Below, piece after piece: positions 9,537 through 16,818 of a DNA stretch of 16,818 nt (its first letter is position 1; the number at the start of each line of letters is the position of its first letter). The position numbers and the translations under genes are program-made. The DNA is from Vibrio tasmaniensis 1F-187 (GTDB lineage Bacteria > Pseudomonadota > Gammaproteobacteria > Enterobacterales > Vibrionaceae). The stretch lies in the NCBI RefSeq assembly GCF_000272405.2, contig NZ_AJZM02000074.1:1-16818 (forward strand), read 5' to 3'. A model generated the notes under the pieces. It was not told the origin of the DNA and searched no databases. It worked only from the letters and a program-made list of their open reading frames with translations.

Positions 9537-9678
9537 ATTTAGTTACGACTTAATGCTTTTGCTTAGAAAATACTTAAAAAGTGTTTCCTATAGATGCTCT
9601 AGAATACCGAGACAGCTCTGTTTCGCATCACTAAACTATAATCTGTTACACTCATATCTTTAATTTTGGTGGCAGCGT

Positions 9679-10533
9679 ATGAAGCTTTATCCTTATTGCA
9701 GGGTTTCTACAGGGAAACAGACTTCTGGACTCAGTATGAGCATACAAGGCGATAGTCGTTTACTGGAGCAGCTAAGCCAAGAACACAGTATGCCTATTGG
9801 ACGAGCTTATAATGATGCTGGTATCAGTTCTTACAAGGGAAAGAACGCCAAAGAAGGCGAACTAAACCTAATTATTAAACACATCGAATCAGGTCAAATA
9901 GCCAGTGGTTCGATAATCGTTATGCGTGCTTTAGACAGACTAAGCCGACAAACTCTCACGGCATCTGAAAACCTATACAACACTATCGTAAGTTCTGGTG
10001 TTCGTATCCTTACAACTATAGATAATCACGTATACAAGAAAGATTGCGTAATGTCTTCAGTATTGAAAACATTAGCTTTTAAAACTGCAAACGAAGAAAG
10101 TGCGAAGAAAAGCTATCTAACCAATCAATACGCATTGCATCGTATAAACCAGTTCAAACGTGGTGAACGCCCTAGCCCAGACACAGCTTATGATATAGGT
10201 GTTGGTCGCCATCCTTGGTATATGAAGATTGAAAACAAAATCTGCCAAGTTGATGATGAAAAATTCAAGCTTGCACGTTCGTGTATAGAAATGGCTTTAG
10301 CTGGCAAAGGTGTATTGAAATGTAAGCAGTTTTTAGAGCGTAATGGCGTCGTATTGAGTTGGTCATCAGTAGCAAAGTTCTTTCGCTCTGAATACTTATT
10401 CGGTCGTCTAAATGTGACTCTAGAGAACAACCAATATAGCTTAGAAGGCTATATTGGTTGTGTGTTCAGAATCAGAGTGGTATCAGATTCGTGGTATCAA
10501 AGAGCAACGCACGTACGCAGTAGGCAATCGTAA
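9679..10533 (+). CDS. Large serine recombinase, N-terminal part (frameshifted gene)
   Basis: This 284-residue frame holds the resolvase catalytic domain: YCRVSTGKQ with the nucleophile Ser10 and Arg8, and RALDRLSRQ with the conserved DRLSR. A 'recombinase' domain follows (about residues 165-250, with EMALAGKGVLKCKQFLERNG and FRSEYLFGRLNV). It leaves the family pattern after SLEGYIGCV (about 10464), where the correct frame shifts; the last 24 residues are out of frame. The continuation is the next entry. Such enzymes integrate and excise phages and islands at short attachment sites without extensive homology. The ribosome site is GGTGG, 6 nt before the ATG. As sequenced the enzyme lacks its zinc ribbon and is probably inactive for integration. 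Confidence 0.88.
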   Translation: MKLYPYCRVSTGKQTSGLSMSIQGDSRLLEQLSQEHSMPIGRAYNDAGISSYKGKNAKEGELNLIIKHIESGQIASGSIIVMRALDRLSRQTLTASENLYNTIVSSGVRILTTIDNHVYKKDCVMSSVLKTLAFKTANEESAKKSYLTNQYALHRINQFKRGERPSPDTAYDIGVGRHPWYMKIENKICQVDDEKFKLARSCIEMALAGKGVLKCKQFLERNGVVLSWSSVAKFFRSEYLFGRLNVTLENNQYSLEGYIGCVFRIRVVSDSWYQRATHVRSRQS

Positions 10534-11566
10534 ACGTGTAAGCATCTTAGGTGGTATTCGTCGGCTCTACTGTCAGTGTTGTGACTCTAGTATGTGCGTG
10601 GTTACGTCACAGGGTAACAGCTACTATCGCTGTTCAGCCTCTCAGCGTGGTGAGAAAAACTGCTTCCCTGCCCTACAGCAAAAACACGTTAATAGAGTTG
10701 TTCTAGAAAGCATTCAGCATCACGTGTTTACAGCTGAGGATGACAGCAACGAGCTACTTGCGCTCAATACTGAGCTAGAGAATAAACAAACAATATTCAG
10801 AAAGCGCCAGATACTTGTATTTGAAAATCCTGAGCTAATGAATGACTTGCAATCATTACTTGAGAAAGAGAAATCTGATATTCAACAACTAGTTGATGAA
10901 ATTAATAAGATAAAAATCAAGCCTAACGACTTAACCTTAGAAAGCTACCATGAGTGGGCTAAGTTAATAAAAACATACTTAGAATCTGATAATGATGACC
11001 TGCTAACAGAAATAAAAGACGCAGTTCAAAAAGTAGTTAAACGTATTAGCATTAACGAAAACTACCTCATCAAAATTGAGCTTGAAAGTAGTGACATCCT
11101 TTATGGTCAATTAGCGAAACAGCGAAATCAGGCTAAACAACGTATTGCTTATTGGTCACCTATTCGTGTTGTAGATAACAGTATATATGACGAGATTGTT
11201 AGTATAGAGCCCCTACTAGCTTTTAAAACCACAACTCAAGATAAGCTTAATAGCCATCAGGTTTGGTCTGACGAAATCACAGGCTGGCTCAGACAATTAG
11301 AAAAACCCATTGATAAGAAAGCTGAATTCTTTATTTTGTTACAAGGTAACGCATATGAGTGGAAGCGGAAACCAATTATCGATGCTGGTGCCACAAGCAC
11401 CCAATGGCAAATGTATAAAGATAGCGATGTTAGTGAATACGGGTTTACTAAACGTGAGATAACATTGACGACGCAGCATTACACTAAACAGCAAAAAACT
11501 GTCATCTACAAAGAATGGGATGAAGCTGAGATTTTAAACATGCTAGGTGGGATTAAATGTAACTGA
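10454..11566 (+). CDS. Large serine recombinase, C-terminal part (frameshifted gene)
   Basis: This 370-residue frame continues the recombinase in the +1 frame. It opens with SESEWYQIRGIKEQRTYAVG, then the zinc-ribbon domain with RLYCQCCDSSMCVVTSQG and YYRCSASQRG...NCF (Cys ligands), then a long coiled coil (about residues 95-190) of the kind used for synapsis, and an extra C-terminal region of about 150 residues that I do not recognise. The apparent TTG start at 10454 is only the first start-like codon in the open frame and has no ribosome site, so it is unlikely to be translated on its own. Together with the N-terminal part the full enzyme would have about 629 residues, a normal length. The stop codon at 11564-11566 lies inside a 13-bp inverted repeat. 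Confidence 0.8.
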   Translation: MVVCSESEWYQIRGIKEQRTYAVGNRKRVSILGGIRRLYCQCCDSSMCVVTSQGNSYYRCSASQRGEKNCFPALQQKHVNRVVLESIQHHVFTAEDDSNELLALNTELENKQTIFRKRQILVFENPELMNDLQSLLEKEKSDIQQLVDEINKIKIKPNDLTLESYHEWAKLIKTYLESDNDDLLTEIKDAVQKVVKRISINENYLIKIELESSDILYGQLAKQRNQAKQRIAYWSPIRVVDNSIYDEIVSIEPLLAFKTTTQDKLNSHQVWSDEITGWLRQLEKPIDKKAEFFILLQGNAYEWKRKPIIDAGATSTQWQMYKDSDVSEYGFTKREITLTTQHYTKQQKTVIYKEWDEAEILNMLGGIKCN

Positions 11567-11985
11567 CGCATCTACTACTTGTGCCAAAGAGGATTTACGC
11601 TCTGCCTTCGGCTACGCTTTCACGTCATATCATGGCATAAAAGTGATTAGCGGCGTAGCCGCTTTCGTCGTAGGCGATAAGTTCGAATGAATAAAACTGT
11701 AAAATAAAGTTCTTTCTTTATAAGGATTATTTTTTACAGATTACGTTGTGCACAATCTATTACGTTTAACTTACTAGTCGGTATTGAGATGCCGTAGGCA
11801 TCAACGCCGCAGGCGTCAATCTCTTTCTAAAGGATTCATTCCGATTAGTTACGTTGATTACGTTTAAGCCCTGCGGGCAACTCGGCTTCGCCTCGTCATC
11901 CTTTCAATAAGTGTTACTCAACTGGTCTTTATAGGGTTCTTAATAGACTAGTTTGGTAACGTTTCCCACTTATAGATGCGTCAGT
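11562..11985. repeat. Hairpin- and repeat-rich intergenic segment bounded by a 13-bp inverted repeat
   Basis: The ends ACTGACGCATCTA (11562-11574) and its reverse complement (11973-11985) are perfect inverted repeats overlapping the stop codon of the recombinase and the last codons of the convergent nuclease remnant. Inside are triloop hairpins built on GCC/GGC: 11604-11612, 11649-11663 (AGCGGC-GTA-GCCGCT), 11665-11677, 11788-11802 (GATGCC-GTA-GGCATC), 11804-11816, 11868-11878 and 11884-11892. TTACGTT occurs four times (11741, 11760, 11849, 11858), twice within ATTACGTTTAA. No protein gene is seen. It could be a small non-autonomous element, a structured RNA, a set of protein-binding sites or a recombination site; I cannot decide between these. 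Confidence 0.65.
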
Positions 11986-12411
11986 AACGAGTTATCACTT
12001 AGCCATGAATCCAACGTTGTACCATTAAGAATAGAGTCGCCATACCGCTCTTTAGCTCTTTCTATCGCTTTATGCTCGTATTGCATTGCGCCAACTTCAT
12101 CCATACATGTCGGTTTATTGGTTTTCTTCGCCCAAATATCAAAGCTCCGCAGTATTTCAAACTCCGCAGCCTCACTCTTTAACAAATGATTGCCGAGCGG
12201 ACTGCTACTTGTGTAATGCCACCAGTTAGGCACTTTCGATACTACCGTGCTGTTGTATACGGTGGTTTCTCGTCTAACTAACTTATCGGTTATTTTTTAT
12301 GCTAATGTATTTCTTATCTAGCCTTGGAAAGCGAATGACATAAAGAAAGGCAACACAGTTCGGGACAAACTCCCCTCGACACTTCCAGTGACCATATTGT
12401 TCTACACTCAT
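11970..12411 (-). pseudogene. GIY-YIG-like endonuclease, broken by a frameshift in an A run
   Basis: An ATG at 12411 overlaps the stop of the helicase remnant (ATGA) and reads MSVEQYGHWK through LYVIRFPRLDKKYISIK, then shifts frame in a run of six A residues (12293-12298 on the plus strand as T). Removing one A joins it to ITDKLVRRETTVYNSTVV, SKVPNWWHYTSSSPLGNHLL, FEILRSFDIW and YEHKAIERAKERYGDSILN, ending at 11970. The restored protein has 146 residues. YVI...YIS spaced by 11 residues followed by a conserved Arg, a late Glu (YEH) and ILN resembles GIY-YIG nucleases of phages and homing enzymes, although the second motif reads YIS rather than YIG. Without repair only an 87-residue piece from a GTG at 12233 remains. 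Frame and overlap are seen; the family is by resemblance. Confidence 0.55.
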
Positions 12412-12875
12412 GCTTTCACCGAAATATCAAAATTAAAGTCTTTTGGCACTCTCTTCATTGCATTAGCCTTGAACAATCTGAGCATATGTTTTGGCTCATC
12501 AATGTTTGGATAGAAACCATTGGCTTTCTCAAACTTATCCACCAGCCTTTTAGCTTTGGGTTTGGTTGCATACTTCTCAACTAAAGCTCGAATCACAGAA
12601 CAACCACGCTGTGAGGTATTTCCCTTGTTCCCAACTTGACCACCATTTTTATCTTTTAGAGTAATGGCTTGAGTATCATCAATCACTGCATTAGGTAGCC
12701 TATTTGCCAACCAGTTAGCCGCTCTCATGTCAGGAACAAAGAACTTACAATCTCTATTATCATCATGAACACGTATGGCTGTTCGCGTTACAGTTTGATA
12801 TACAACATCAAGAACATTCTGATTCACATACGCATCAGTTAGATAGCTCTCATCATAACCAAGAAATCGAAGCAA
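12408..12875 (-). pseudogene. C-terminal remnant of a helicase-like replication protein
   Basis: The open frame (155 codons from a TTG at 12875) has no ribosome site and is preceded directly by in-frame stop codons, so the gene has lost its N-terminus. VLDVVYQTVTRTAIR followed by FFVPDMRAANWLANRLPNA resembles the end of superfamily-2-type phage or plasmid helicases (motif VI with Q-x-x-x-R-x-x-x-R, then a short strand). After this comes a linker with KDKNGGQVGNKGNTSQRG and a basic helical tail, as in replication-control or DNA-binding C-termini. The first start-like ATG is internal. The remnant begins about 100 bp from the start of the plus-strand cargo gene, which suggests that the cargo replaced the missing part. 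The family call is moderate. Confidence 0.5.
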
Positions 12876-12973: not shown

Positions 12974-14440
12974 ATGAGCAACCGTAGAGAAGGCTGGGAA
13001 GACATCGATTTAAATGAGATGTTTGGTGATATTGAAGCGGATAGTATCACCCGCCCGCTAGATGAGTACCTAGAAAACCTAAGCTCGTTCTACACCACTT
13101 ACAGGGCAGATAGCAGTTCAGGTCTTATGAGGGTTATTGAAGATTTCGAGCCTGAATCTTTAGACCAGTCCACCATTGCGTTTATCACAGGCTCCCTTAG
13201 AGCTGCTAACTATGACGAAAACGCACTAAGGGGTGAGCACGTTGTTTTATTCTCCGAGCCAGTAATCGTATCCGAAATGCGATTCGATAAAGCTCCTACT
13301 GACGAAACCGAAGCAGCTATTAGGTTAATATCCAATATCGCTTCAGACAAGAAGATTACAACGAATAGAACCGTCACATCGCGTGCTCACAATGTTCCCG
13401 TTACAACATACAAATTACATGATGTGGTTTACGGCTTGATTCTACCAAAGCGCAGTAATTTGCTGTCGATAAAGCTAGTCAATTTTCGCGCCCTACATAC
13501 TGATATAAAGAAACTAGAGAAAACAGAGAAAGCACTTCAAAAAGCCAACCGAGCTCCACAGGTTCAAATTCAGAAAATTGTACAAAAATTCAATGATATC
13601 AACTCAATTATCAACGCTAGGCGAGATAAATTTGAAGCAATTGAACTCGACGTTCAAACGTTGGTGCAAAAACAATCGCATACTCAGAGTGCTCTTGAAA
13701 ACAGCCAAAAGACATTGAAGAAAGTAAGTAGCGATACAGCGGCGATTTCAGAAGAGTACGATAACGTCACAATTGAACTGAGCAAAGCCAATCAACAGTT
13801 AGATAAACTCAAGAAACAACTTTCCACAAGTAAGAAAGAACATGACGAAGCCATGATTAGAGTCCAGCAAATCCAGACTAATATCATTGGTGAGCGTGAA
13901 ACCTTACAGGGTTTACAAGAAGAGCTAGCCATTGCACGGCGAGAGAAAAACCTAACTACTTTTGATACAGCAGGGCACACAGCTGAAACAAAGACTCAAT
14001 TAGTAGCTTATTATTGGTTCGCTACTATTACATTTTTAGGTTTAGTCGGTATGGCCATTTATGTCTACCGAAATGGTCAGAACTTTATGGAAACACTGCC
14101 TTACTTGGTACATGTGAGCGCATGGGATATTCTACTGAGCAGACTACCCCTAGTCGCCGCTACGACCCTTATTATAGGCGGTTTATCTGGTGTCTTTTTC
14201 TTCCTAATTAAACATATCGTATCGCTCAACACAGAGAAGATGACGATGCTAAAGGCAGGTATCCTAGCTGAGCAAATAACCAACTCTCTAGAGTGTAAAG
14301 GCATGACAGAAGAAGATATTCTTCAGTTCAAGCGAGACACTAAAATCAAGCTGATAATGCAGATATTCTCAAAAGGTGAGCCTGAAATCGATAAGAGCAA
14401 TATTATAATCGAAGCACTAAAAGCCATGAACTCAAAGTAA
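12974..14440 (+). CDS. Two-TM coiled-coil membrane protein, candidate partner of the RT
   Basis: This 488-residue protein is not one I can assign to a named family. Residues 1-165 form a soluble, mixed alpha/beta domain (MSNRREGWEDIDLNEMFGDI at the start). Residues about 170-335 are a long charged coiled coil. Two membrane helices follow, YYWFATITFLGLVGMAIYVY (about 345-364) and PLVAATTLIIGGLSGVFFFL (about 391-410), with a short loop between them, then a cytoplasmic tail of about 75 residues. This puts both the N-terminal domain and the tail on the same, probably cytoplasmic, side. GAGGG close to the ATG is the ribosome site. It has its own terminator and is followed by the reverse transcriptase gene 132 bp away on the same strand. 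Large coiled-coil membrane proteins beside defence enzymes often act as membrane-disrupting effectors; that is inference here. Confidence 0.85.
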   Translation: MSNRREGWEDIDLNEMFGDIEADSITRPLDEYLENLSSFYTTYRADSSSGLMRVIEDFEPESLDQSTIAFITGSLRAANYDENALRGEHVVLFSEPVIVSEMRFDKAPTDETEAAIRLISNIASDKKITTNRTVTSRAHNVPVTTYKLHDVVYGLILPKRSNLLSIKLVNFRALHTDIKKLEKTEKALQKANRAPQVQIQKIVQKFNDINSIINARRDKFEAIELDVQTLVQKQSHTQSALENSQKTLKKVSSDTAAISEEYDNVTIELSKANQQLDKLKKQLSTSKKEHDEAMIRVQQIQTNIIGERETLQGLQEELAIARREKNLTTFDTAGHTAETKTQLVAYYWFATITFLGLVGMAIYVYRNGQNFMETLPYLVHVSAWDILLSRLPLVAATTLIIGGLSGVFFFLIKHIVSLNTEKMTMLKAGILAEQITNSLECKGMTEEDILQFKRDTKIKLIMQIFSKGEPEIDKSNIIIEALKAMNSK

Positions 14441-14445
14441 GCATC

Positions 14446-14470
14446 AAACCGCCGGAAGGCGGTTTTTCTT
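14446..14470 (+). terminator. Terminator between the coiled-coil gene and the RT gene
   Basis: AAACCGCC-GGAA-GGCGGTTT is a perfect 8-bp stem with a GGAA tetraloop, followed by TTCTT. It lies 5 bp after the stop codon, so the RT is likely to have its own promoter in the next 100 bp or to depend on read-through. Confidence 0.85.
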
Positions 14471-14572
14471 TAGAAATCAACACAGGTCAGGTTTTCAGAA
14501 TTAAGTTAAAGTCGGCATTTTTACCATCATTTTTATGGCATGATTATGTTGTTCAACTAAGTTAATGGTCTC

Positions 14573-16186
14573 ATGATGGACGCTCATAAAAAAAGAAAAC
14601 TCTACAAGGCACTAACTCGCTACAATTACTTTCCTAATCAGAAATCAAACATCGGTGAATTACCACCCCTACTCAACACTAGACAGTTTACGCCAGAGGT
14701 TTGTGAAGCATTAGCAACTCTCAATGAATCTAAGACTCGTGAAGGCAGTGGCTATGATTTAGTGACTTACAATGCGACTAGGTATAACAACGCATTTCGT
14801 GAATTGTCACTGATTCACCCTAAGGCATACTCATTGCTCGCCAAGCACCTACACGACCACTGGGATAAGATAGAGCCATTCACCACCAGCGAAAGTAGTA
14901 TTATTAAACCCGAAGAGCGAGAAGATGGTCGAATCATGGTAATGAACTATGAAGACCCTATTGAGAAAACAACACGAGCACTGACTGAAAGCTTTGGTAA
15001 AAGATTTCTAGTTAAAGCTGATATATCAAACTGCTTCAATAGCATTTATTCACATGCTATTTCATGGGGTTTAGTTGGATTCGACCATGCAAAAGCGAAT
15101 CGTCAGCAGCACTTGTGGTTCAATGAAGTAGATAAGTACCAAAGAAAATGCAAAAGGAATGAGACTCAAGGAATTCCAATCGGCTCGGCTACTTCAAACA
15201 TCAGTTTGGAAATCATTCTAGGCAAAGTAGATGAAGAACTTAGAACCGCCGGTTATAGTTTTCATCGATATGTTGATGATTACAGTTGCTACTGTGAAAC
15301 AAATGAATCCGCGCATCAATTCTTACTTTTGCTGGGTAAGTCACTCGCCAAATACAAGCTATCTTTAAACATTCAAAAGACACAGATAATCGAACAGCCT
15401 GCACCAGACCAAGATGCATGGGTATTGGAATTACTTGGCAGCCTGCCAAGTCGATTAAACAAAGGTCATAATGATGACCCAAAGCTCACAGCAGCTGAAG
15501 CCATTACATTCATCAACCATGCACTCACTGTAAACAAGCAAACACCAGATGGTAGTGTATTGAAGTATGCCATTCAATTGATAGTCCACTTTCTTGACGA
15601 GCAAGCGCCAGCGACCGTTTATAGCAGTGTTCTAAATTTATCTTGGCATTATCCTATTTTAATTCCGTATCTGGATGAGCTGATTGAAAAGTCCAGTATC
15701 AATAGAGGTGAGATTGATAAACACCTAAATGCACTCATCATTGAAAACTGCAAACATCGCCGTTCTGATGGCATTTGCTGGCCTTTACATATAATGAAAA
15801 AGCTCGAAATTGCACCTGCCGATAAAACTATTGATGCCATCATTGATATCGAAGATTGCGTGAGCTTAACCATTTTGAATTCCATGCTTATTGGCAACAA
15901 GCAAATCATCAACTTCGCAAACACGGTCATCAAATCAGGTGATAACTACTATATCGACACATACTGGCTACTGCTCTATCAATTGTTTAGAGATGGTGAT
16001 ATTAAAAATGCTTACGGTAACATTAAAATATTCGACACTCTTTTAGGCTTTGATGTGAACTTTATTCCTGGCAAAGTACAGACCCAAGCGGAGCAAAAGT
16101 GCGCGAGTGTGGATGCTGGTTTTATCTTTGGAGATATAGCCAAACGATTTGGCAAACGCAAACAGCCTGAGCAGCTTGAATTTTAG
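14573..16186 (+). CDS. Reverse transcriptase of the UG/Abi (defence-associated) type
   Basis: The protein has 537 residues. RT motifs in order: motif A FLVKADISNCFNSIYSHAI with Asp150; motif B GIPIGSATSNISLEIIL (about 200-216); motif C HRYVDDYSCY with Asp235/Asp236; motif D/E LSLNIQKTQI and WVLELLG. Thus the catalytic Asp triad is complete. The wording GIPIG-x-x-x-S-N...EIIL and RYVDDY, and the N-terminal YFPNQ...ELPPLL...FTPEV, fit the prokaryotic 'unknown group'/AbiA-AbiK-AbiP2 reverse transcriptases that work in phage defence, not group II introns (no maturase) or retrons (motif X and VTG are not seen). Residues about 300-537 are an all-helical repeat-like domain, as in class 2 UG enzymes. 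I cannot assign a DRT type. No strong ribosome site precedes the ATG (a second ATG follows at once). Confidence 0.88.
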   Translation: MMDAHKKRKLYKALTRYNYFPNQKSNIGELPPLLNTRQFTPEVCEALATLNESKTREGSGYDLVTYNATRYNNAFRELSLIHPKAYSLLAKHLHDHWDKIEPFTTSESSIIKPEEREDGRIMVMNYEDPIEKTTRALTESFGKRFLVKADISNCFNSIYSHAISWGLVGFDHAKANRQQHLWFNEVDKYQRKCKRNETQGIPIGSATSNISLEIILGKVDEELRTAGYSFHRYVDDYSCYCETNESAHQFLLLLGKSLAKYKLSLNIQKTQIIEQPAPDQDAWVLELLGSLPSRLNKGHNDDPKLTAAEAITFINHALTVNKQTPDGSVLKYAIQLIVHFLDEQAPATVYSSVLNLSWHYPILIPYLDELIEKSSINRGEIDKHLNALIIENCKHRRSDGICWPLHIMKKLEIAPADKTIDAIIDIEDCVSLTILNSMLIGNKQIINFANTVIKSGDNYYIDTYWLLLYQLFRDGDIKNAYGNIKIFDTLLGFDVNFIPGKVQTQAEQKCASVDAGFIFGDIAKRFGKRKQPEQLEF

Positions 16187-16199
16187 TGCTTTAAATGGC

Positions 16200-16226
16200 A
16201 AAAAACCGACTCAATGAGTCGGTTTT
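16200..16226. terminator. Bidirectional terminator between the RT and the convergent small genes
   Basis: AAAACCGACTC and GAGTCGGTTTT form a perfect 11-bp stem with an AAT loop, with T-rich tails on both strands (TTTT on plus, six T on minus). It lies 13 bp after the RT stop and overlaps the stop codon of the convergent 86-residue gene. Confidence 0.88.
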
Positions 16227-16471
16227 AATAGTTTAAGCTCTTTAATAGCAGATTGAACAGGCGTCATTTTAATCTGCTCAATGAAATCCATAGGGTCATC
16301 CGCGAGCCTAGCGAGTTCTTTATACTTCCTGAGTTCAGTATCCGAAGCTTCAGATTTAACATGATAGAAGAAGCTGTTTGTTAGCATATCTACTGTGCTG
16401 AAATCCGAGGGTGTTTCAAATAGCTCATCATCAGGTAAAGCTCGTTTAAAGAAGTTGTTTAAGTAACTCAT
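16211..16471 (-). CDS. Small protein of unknown function
   Basis: An 86-residue protein, mostly helical and charged, starting MSYLNNFFKRALPDDELFET and ending in ELKLLKPTH. No signal peptide, membrane helix or known motif is visible. Its ATG overlaps the stop codon of the upstream gene by 4 bp (ATGA), so the two are translationally coupled and probably work together. It ends inside the shared terminator with the reverse transcriptase. I do not recognise the family; a toxin-antitoxin pair is possible from the layout but nothing in the sequence shows it. Confidence 0.65.
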   Translation of the reverse strand: MSYLNNFFKRALPDDELFETPSDFSTVDMLTNSFFYHVKSEASDTELRKYKELARLADDPMDFIEQIKMTPVQSAIKELKLLKPTH

Positions 16472-16818
16472 GAGATAAACCCTCTTAGGAGATTCAGGTC
16501 ATCAATTGAGACTCTATCCTCATCAAGTACACCCGCTTTCAAGGCTTCGTATACGCTCATTCCACTTGTTAGGTTGATTTGTTTCTCTGGCTGTTGCTTT
16601 AGAATCTCTTCCAGCTCGTTCTGCACACACATCTCAACTAGCTTGTTCTTATGTTTAATCTTCTCATGAGCCAATAAGGTTAAAGCTGATTTAAGAACAT
16701 GAATCTTTATCTCTGCTTTTTGTTCATTCTTCAGGTTCACATTTAACTCATTTTCAGAAAACAGGTCACTTAATGAAAAATCACTCGCAAGGGATAGTGA
16801 TCCGCACCAGAAGTTTTG
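16468..16818 (-). CDS. Small unknown protein, runs off the right edge
   Basis: The frame is open from the window edge to the stop at 16468 (117 codons). A GTG at 16740 could start a 90-residue protein, but its ribosome site is weak and no ATG occurs upstream in the window, so the gene may begin outside. The visible part is helical and charged (KNEQKAEIKIHVLKSALTLL, then MCVQNELEEILKQQPEK and a C-terminal SIDDLNLLRGFIS). At the very edge the frame reads QNFWCGS from a sequence repeated in inverted orientation at the other window end. Function not recognised. Confidence 0.55.
   Translation of the reverse strand, partial: QNFWCGSLSLASDFSLSDLFSENELNVNLKNEQKAEIKIHVLKSALTLLAHEKIKHKNKLVEMCVQNELEEILKQQPEKQINLTSGMSVYEALKAGVLDEDRVSIDDLNLLRGFIS
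16798..16818 (-). repeat. Right copy of the 21-bp inverted repeat at the window ends
   Basis: Perfect reverse complement of 2-22; the match stops abruptly after 21 bp going inward, while outward it is cut by the window edge. On the minus strand it lies in frame with the partial gene ending at 16468. Confidence 0.85.

Follow-up and report, generated by a model that had tools for sequence, protein, structure and literature searches.

The gene pair and the identity of the reverse transcriptase

The DNA analysed here, referred to as the window, is the whole 16,818-nt stretch of contig NZ_AJZM02000074.1 of Vibrio tasmaniensis 1F-187. It carries two adjacent genes on the forward strand. The first (12974–14440, +) encodes a 488-aa coiled-coil protein with two transmembrane (TM) helices, designated CC, and the second (14573–16186, +) encodes a 537-aa reverse transcriptase (RT) of the Drt4 (UG15) family. 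Both lie in an island that carries a serine recombinase and occupies the 3′ end of pntB, adjoining a two-component system. A first-pass annotation made from the letters alone had described both open reading frames (ORFs) as they are found here and had proposed that they formed a joint defence module, with two separate defence genes as the other possibility. Our analysis indicated that CC and the RT, a DRT4, are likely two independent accessory genes. The RT is not new, and the CC family is the undescribed part of the locus.

Judged by its sequence, the reverse TRANSCRIPTASE at 14573–16186 is DRT4, a known defence family. It scored 686.7 bits with the Drt4 equivalog NF041749 of NCBIfam, for which the curated cut-off is 450, and the solved UG15 chain 21ou_A (PDB) aligned with residues 5–518 (E 4.3e-146). 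The RT was assigned to Drt4 because of this score above the curated cut-off and the strong similarity to the solved UG15. The best Drt4 model of PADLOC gave 779.7 bits, the next-best class being Drt6 with 295.1 bits. The Pfam family PF00078 was also recognized (62.1 bits), and the catalytic motifs ADIS (149–152) and YVDD (233–236) were intact and aligned with those of UG15. The defence-type UG RT proposed in the annotation was borne out. From its sequence, this copy would be active. In a 2026 review, DRT4 is described as a single-gene system that makes template-free single-stranded DNA (ssDNA; PMC13213688), and reviews likewise treat it as a single gene. The synthesis is reported to be tyrosine-primed, template-independent and random, and the ssDNA is reported to turn toxic once the phage protein ORF55 shields its 3′ end (PMC13213688, PMC13314766). 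A preprint lists DRT4 among the hexameric RTs (PMC13174585).

The gap between CC and the RT is 132 nt and contains a terminator-like hairpin (14446–14465, +) with eight pairs, five of them G-C, and a T-rich tail. The terminator noted in the annotation was thus confirmed, and together with the length of the gap it suggested that CC and the RT are transcribed separately. A second hairpin was readable by eye directly 3′ of the RT, at about 16205–16223, and was not called by the hairpin scan. The promoter scan gave seven sites against a mean of 8.7 in shuffled sequence, which was no excess. No RNA family was found in the window by Rfam at the gathering threshold.

The occurrence of the two genes elsewhere spoke against a joint module. 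Besides the window, 16 non-redundant CC loci were compared (L002–L006, L010, and L085–L094), mostly with flanks of 8–10 kb, L006 and L010 being shorter on one side. The four other Drt4 loci (L095–L098) were all those over the cut-off in searches of order-level and Vibrio genomes. Drt4 was found at 0 of the 16 CC loci and CC at 0 of the four Drt4 loci; in other words, CC occurred without Drt4 at 16/16 loci and Drt4 without CC at 4/4, which in this sample went against the module of the annotation, and the idea of a co-evolved system of RT and CC was rejected on this sample. The recurrent adjacency of both families that would mark a two-gene module of RT and two-TM (2TM) protein, of the DRT9–SLATT type, was not seen in either set of loci. 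Among 227 Vibrio genomes, CC was present in nine (three broken or partial) and Drt4 over the cut-off in two, and both occurred together only in the genome of the window. A match to Drt4 in a third Vibrio genome (G530, 149.8 bits) was below the cut-off and was left out of the count. The search of 329 genomes of the family returned the same nine CC genomes. In the 394 genomes of the order, full-length CC was present in four and Drt4 in four, shared solely by the genome of the window. Here, 42 genomes had a CC match, of which 37 (≤27.4 bits) were dropped as coiled-coil noise and four were full length; a partial match in G037 (59.1 bits, residues 2–88) was left out.

The other Drt4 copies had neighbours of their own. 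The closest copy, 77% identical to the RT of the window, was near a proline-dehydrogenase (PutA-like) gene in L096. In L097 (7562–13932), Drt4 was placed inside a type I restriction-modification (R-M) system, with an hsdS-like gene on one side and an hsdR-like gene on the other, and in L095 it adjoined an ABC-3C-type gene and a PADLOC candidate. The five Drt4 loci, including the window, had no other protein cluster in common in an all-against-all comparison (E≤1e-6) of this small sample, restricted to proteins.

The CC family and its loci

CC belongs to a gammaproteobacterial family, with 99 homologues at E≤1e-3, and therefore is not a chance ORF. As the annotation had stated, it is an unrecognised 2-TM coiled-coil protein preceding the RT: Pfam, NCBIfam, PADLOC and PHROGs gave coiled-coil matches only. 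The Pfam listing for CC at E≤1 comprised 18 families, all under their cut-offs, with no SLATT, F5/8 type C or discoidin family among them, and the 19 PADLOC families listed at the same threshold included no 2TM effector. Precomputed Pfam accessions were found on 12 of the 99 homologues and were of mixed kinds, one of them, PF24161, bearing the coiled-coil name CCDC39. A very new Pfam model, PF28256 (on P0002 and P0086), which was absent from the Pfam release searched, may touch the family. We found no described function for the family, and no description of the architecture was met in the literature at the level of titles and abstract openings, where a word search is blind to an unnamed family.

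Three parts were distinguished in CC. Residues 37–175 (13082–13498, +) were predicted to form a discoidin/F5-8C-like beta-sandwich, based on two structure models with weak fold matches. Residues 178–325 (13505–13948, +) formed a long helix in the model, with a heptad bias typified by 72% hydrophobic residues at a/d in the best register vs. 34% across the helix. Two hydrophobic stretches followed, at about 342–366 and 378–419, and the putative topology places the second TM helix and the helix after it in residues 383–438 (14120–14287, +). The alignment behind the structure contained 94 of the 99 homologues (P0066, P0067, P0096, P0098, and P0099 were short and were omitted), and the profile for genome searches was built from 35 of the 99. 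Across the 94 sequences, mean pairwise identity peaked at 77% in residues 383–438; the discoidin-like domain reached 35% and the poorly conserved helix 26%.

In the fold search with the whole model, no PDB match was obtained at E≤0.001 among the fold families listed. A viral match of the whole model (6.5e-4, an unnamed 1263-aa protein, rmsd 40) was set aside. For Lamassu LmuB and Wadjet JetC, the best stretches listed lay within residues 171–341, mainly coiled coil (best E 5.4e-5), with no match to the ATPase head, and both were rejected. An SMC, a tape measure protein and tropomyosin were also rejected, the resemblance being confined to the coiled coil.

CC homologues were found in mobile elements of different kinds. 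In L087, the gene was carried by a filamentous-type prophage with a Zot-like protein (phrog_197), a GPA replication protein and an adjoining integrase gene. In L088 (10825–19348), it was carried by a PM2-like tailless prophage, beside an integrase fragment; the capsid matched PM2 P2 (2vvf, E 7.1e-6) and phrog_8536, and L089 had gene clusters in common with this prophage. Tailless and filamentous prophages of Vibrio have been reported to possess an accessory locus in which defence functions are enriched (PMC11630473). In IMG/VR, one CC locus (L012) was found, which was identical to part of L087 and was counted once. No tblastn match to CC was obtained at 1e-5 in PLSDB plasmids or INPHARED phages.

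Defence-type neighbours of CC were a TIR gene in L086, a HEPN gene in L093, and SLATT_6 and Drt8 in L092. In L093 (6308–9025), downstream of pntAB, the genes near CC encoded a HEPN_Toprim/RiboL-PSP protein and one of 381 aa with no assigned family, and homologues of both were near CC in L094. In L092 (10599–12883), a SLATT_6 protein adjoined a Drt8 RT, and a partial CC gene lay ~0.5 kb from the former and 1.2 kb from the latter; this arrangement indicated clustering of defence-type genes rather than a partnership with Drt4. As a raw count, prophage or defence-type neighbours were present at 7/16 CC loci (L086–L089 and L092–L094). At the other nine, none was seen among the part of the neighbours that was scanned; of these, L005 was judged by its likeness to L003, L090 was scanned for the insertion only, and L091 was known only as a pntB site. 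A weak CARF-like match in L010 (17 bits, E 8.9e-4) and NYN/OST-HTH in L006 were not counted as defence neighbours. Three copies of CC were broken or partial, namely those in L090 (interrupted by an insertion that carries an integrase core), L091 and L092, and this decay fits a conditionally useful gene.

The island at the 3′ end of pntB

The integrative element in which the annotation had placed the pair was confirmed, and the 3′ end of pntB was identified as its target. Window homology to empty sites ended at ~9636, through a displaced copy of the pntB 3′ end (9589–9636, −), which aligned with the pntB 3′ end beside the histidine-kinase gene in empty-site relatives and formed an attL-like island edge. 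The kinase gene was present in 25 genomes, the window's own included, of which 16 others were compared, and in 15 of these 16 related Vibrio genomes the kinase gene was directly beside pntB, without cargo. Directly after the edge there was a serine recombinase split over two frames. Its N-terminal part (9679–10533, +) matched PF00239 Resolvase (42.7 bits), and its C-terminal part, in the other frame (10454–11566, +), matched the zinc ribbon PF13408 (25.9 bits vs. a cut-off of 25.3). A stretch 69% identical to the N-terminal part was found at the same chromosomal place in L011/L091. The split suggested that the island may no longer be mobile alone.

Between the recombinase and CC, a phage-type protein remnant (12408–12875, −) matched profile positions 362–443 of 502 of phrog_2467 (unknown function; E 1.6e-14). 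After the RT, a small ORF (16211–16471, −) had no credible family in Pfam, NCBIfam, PADLOC or PHROGs, and neither did a second one overlapping it (16468–16740, −), which gave weak partial matches (best E 0.0018). The contig stopped at a 21-nt sequence (16798–16818, +), the end of a putative multi-copy repeat, which was present in inverted orientation at both window ends (2–22 and 16798–16818) and at 12 sites in the genome. At least 11 of these 12 copies were no more than 3 nt away from the end of a contig. The sequence most likely marks an assembly break at an insertion sequence (IS)-like multi-copy repeat rather than part of the island.

The genome carries its intact pntB on another contig (C57), with a 3′ end (L144:1380–1510) different from the displaced copy. 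Downstream of it were genes for a TIR protein, a helix-hairpin-helix protein and a resolvase. The TIR protein (L144:1674–2684) matched CAP12_TIR (122 bits) and the PADLOC candidate PDC-S35 (240.9 bits). Judging from synteny, C57 is probably the far end of the island of the window. The annotation had called the gene pair the only intact cargo. That holds for what is seen in the window and reflects the end of the contig; for the island as a whole it would not stand, given the TIR gene on the pntB-bearing contig. Apart from this, a 124-nt repeat (11788–11911) recurred, inverted and with 88.7% identity, at the end of C57 (L144:5862–5985).

The pntB 3′ end is an island site in Vibrio, and two further genomes have a CC-family gene inserted there, with the kinase gene on one side and pntB on the other: L086, with a TIR gene beside CC, and L091, where CC was broken and a recombinase fragment was adjacent. 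In L093, a CC homologue was located ~3.5 kb downstream of pntB. Among the titles and abstract openings covered, no description of pntB as an island site was met.

Possible function of CC and comparison with known systems

We tentatively propose, as the likeliest of the readings considered, that CC is a stand-alone anti-phage membrane protein. In its wider form, the proposal, to be held with the same reserve, is that CC represents a new family of such proteins, which marine bacteria would carry in chromosomal defence islands and in phages of the filamentous and the PM2-like tailless kind. The long coiled coil would lie between a cytosolic domain of discoidin-like fold and a membrane hairpin of two helices. 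The variable beta domain might sense an infection cue, the coiled coil might oligomerise or transmit the signal, and the conserved hairpin might then alter membrane permeability, so that the infection would be aborted. By homology to DRT4, the RT would act alone as a hexamer, making random template-free ssDNA by tyrosine priming, and this ssDNA would turn toxic once its 3′ ends are shielded by a DNA-binding protein of the phage.

Two other explanations were considered for CC, and each seemed rather unlikely. The first is that CC is a superinfection-exclusion protein of the inner membrane, which keeps related phages from using their receptor or from bringing in their genome, while the cell survives. 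Its presence as a membrane protein of filamentous and tailless prophages, beside an integrase gene (L087) or an integrase fragment (L088), is consistent with this. However, CC was also chromosomal with no phage genes among the scanned neighbours (L002 and L003), a large sensor-like domain and a coiled coil seem superfluous for exclusion, and the topology of CC is itself a prediction. The second, equally doubtful, is that CC serves mobile elements as a fitness or maintenance gene without an anti-phage role, for example in stress response or membrane organisation. Several CC loci had only housekeeping or unidentified genes among the scanned neighbours. The patchy distribution (9/227 Vibrio genomes), the repeated decay (L090, L091, and L092) and the proximity to TIR, HEPN, SLATT and RT genes nevertheless fit an accessory conflict gene better. 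Finally, it is very improbable that CC and Drt4 are a functional pair in this lineage, in which the ssDNA of the RT would gate the membrane hairpin of CC as suggested for DRT9 and its optional SLATT: the genes are adjacent on the same strand, DRT9 systems occasionally include SLATT 2-TM proteins for which regulation by nucleic acids has been raised as a hypothesis (PMC12483538), and the partial CC gene of L092 is near Drt8 and SLATT_6, but reciprocal co-occurrence was nil, a terminator separates the genes, and other Drt4 copies keep other neighbours (a PutA-like gene in L096 and type I R-M genes in L097).

With CC and Drt4 read as independent genes, a likely false two-gene DRT module is removed from consideration, and attention shifts to CC and its homologues, where matches in the four scanned libraries went no further than the coiled coil. 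Should CC prove to act in defence, filamentous and tailless prophages would carry a new and testable layout that pairs a conserved membrane hairpin with a sensor of discoidin-like fold. The pntB 3′ end, a recurrent island site in Vibrio (in Moritella by position only), is a place to seek more such genes.

Compared with DRT4 (UG15, NF041749, PDB 21ou and relatives), the RT of the window matched over nearly the whole length with the catalytic motifs present, and no partner was common to the Drt4 loci of other genomes; sequence divergence and a chance neighbour were the only differences found. In DRT9 (UG28) with its optional SLATT partner, too, a 2-TM membrane protein accompanies a defence RT. 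However, it is another RT class and is dependent on non-coding RNA, and its partner is reported to recur in DRT9 systems (PMC12483538), which was not so for the Drt4 of the window; CC also had no SLATT match. CC was also found in the kind of prophage, tailless or filamentous, whose accessory locus has been described in Vibrio (PMC11630473), next to an integrase gene (L087) or fragment (L088); the words coiled, superinfection and cargo do not occur in the main text of that paper. The membrane-anchored coiled-coil defence protein DUF4041 is described as having a membrane anchor and a central coiled coil (PMC9519451), as CC does, but did not appear in the Pfam listing for CC at E≤1. The predicted jelly-roll fold of residues 37–175 resembles discoidin, F5-8 type C and CBM32 domains; no sequence match accompanied it, and the domain of CC is presumed to be cytosolic. 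By analogy, CC resembles SLATT and CBASS 2TM effectors, which are predicted to be pore forming (PMC12483538), in that a short membrane module of two helices is joined to a cytosolic portion. It differs from them in having no sequence match and in combining a long coiled coil, a predicted discoidin-like domain and a hairpin near the C-terminus.

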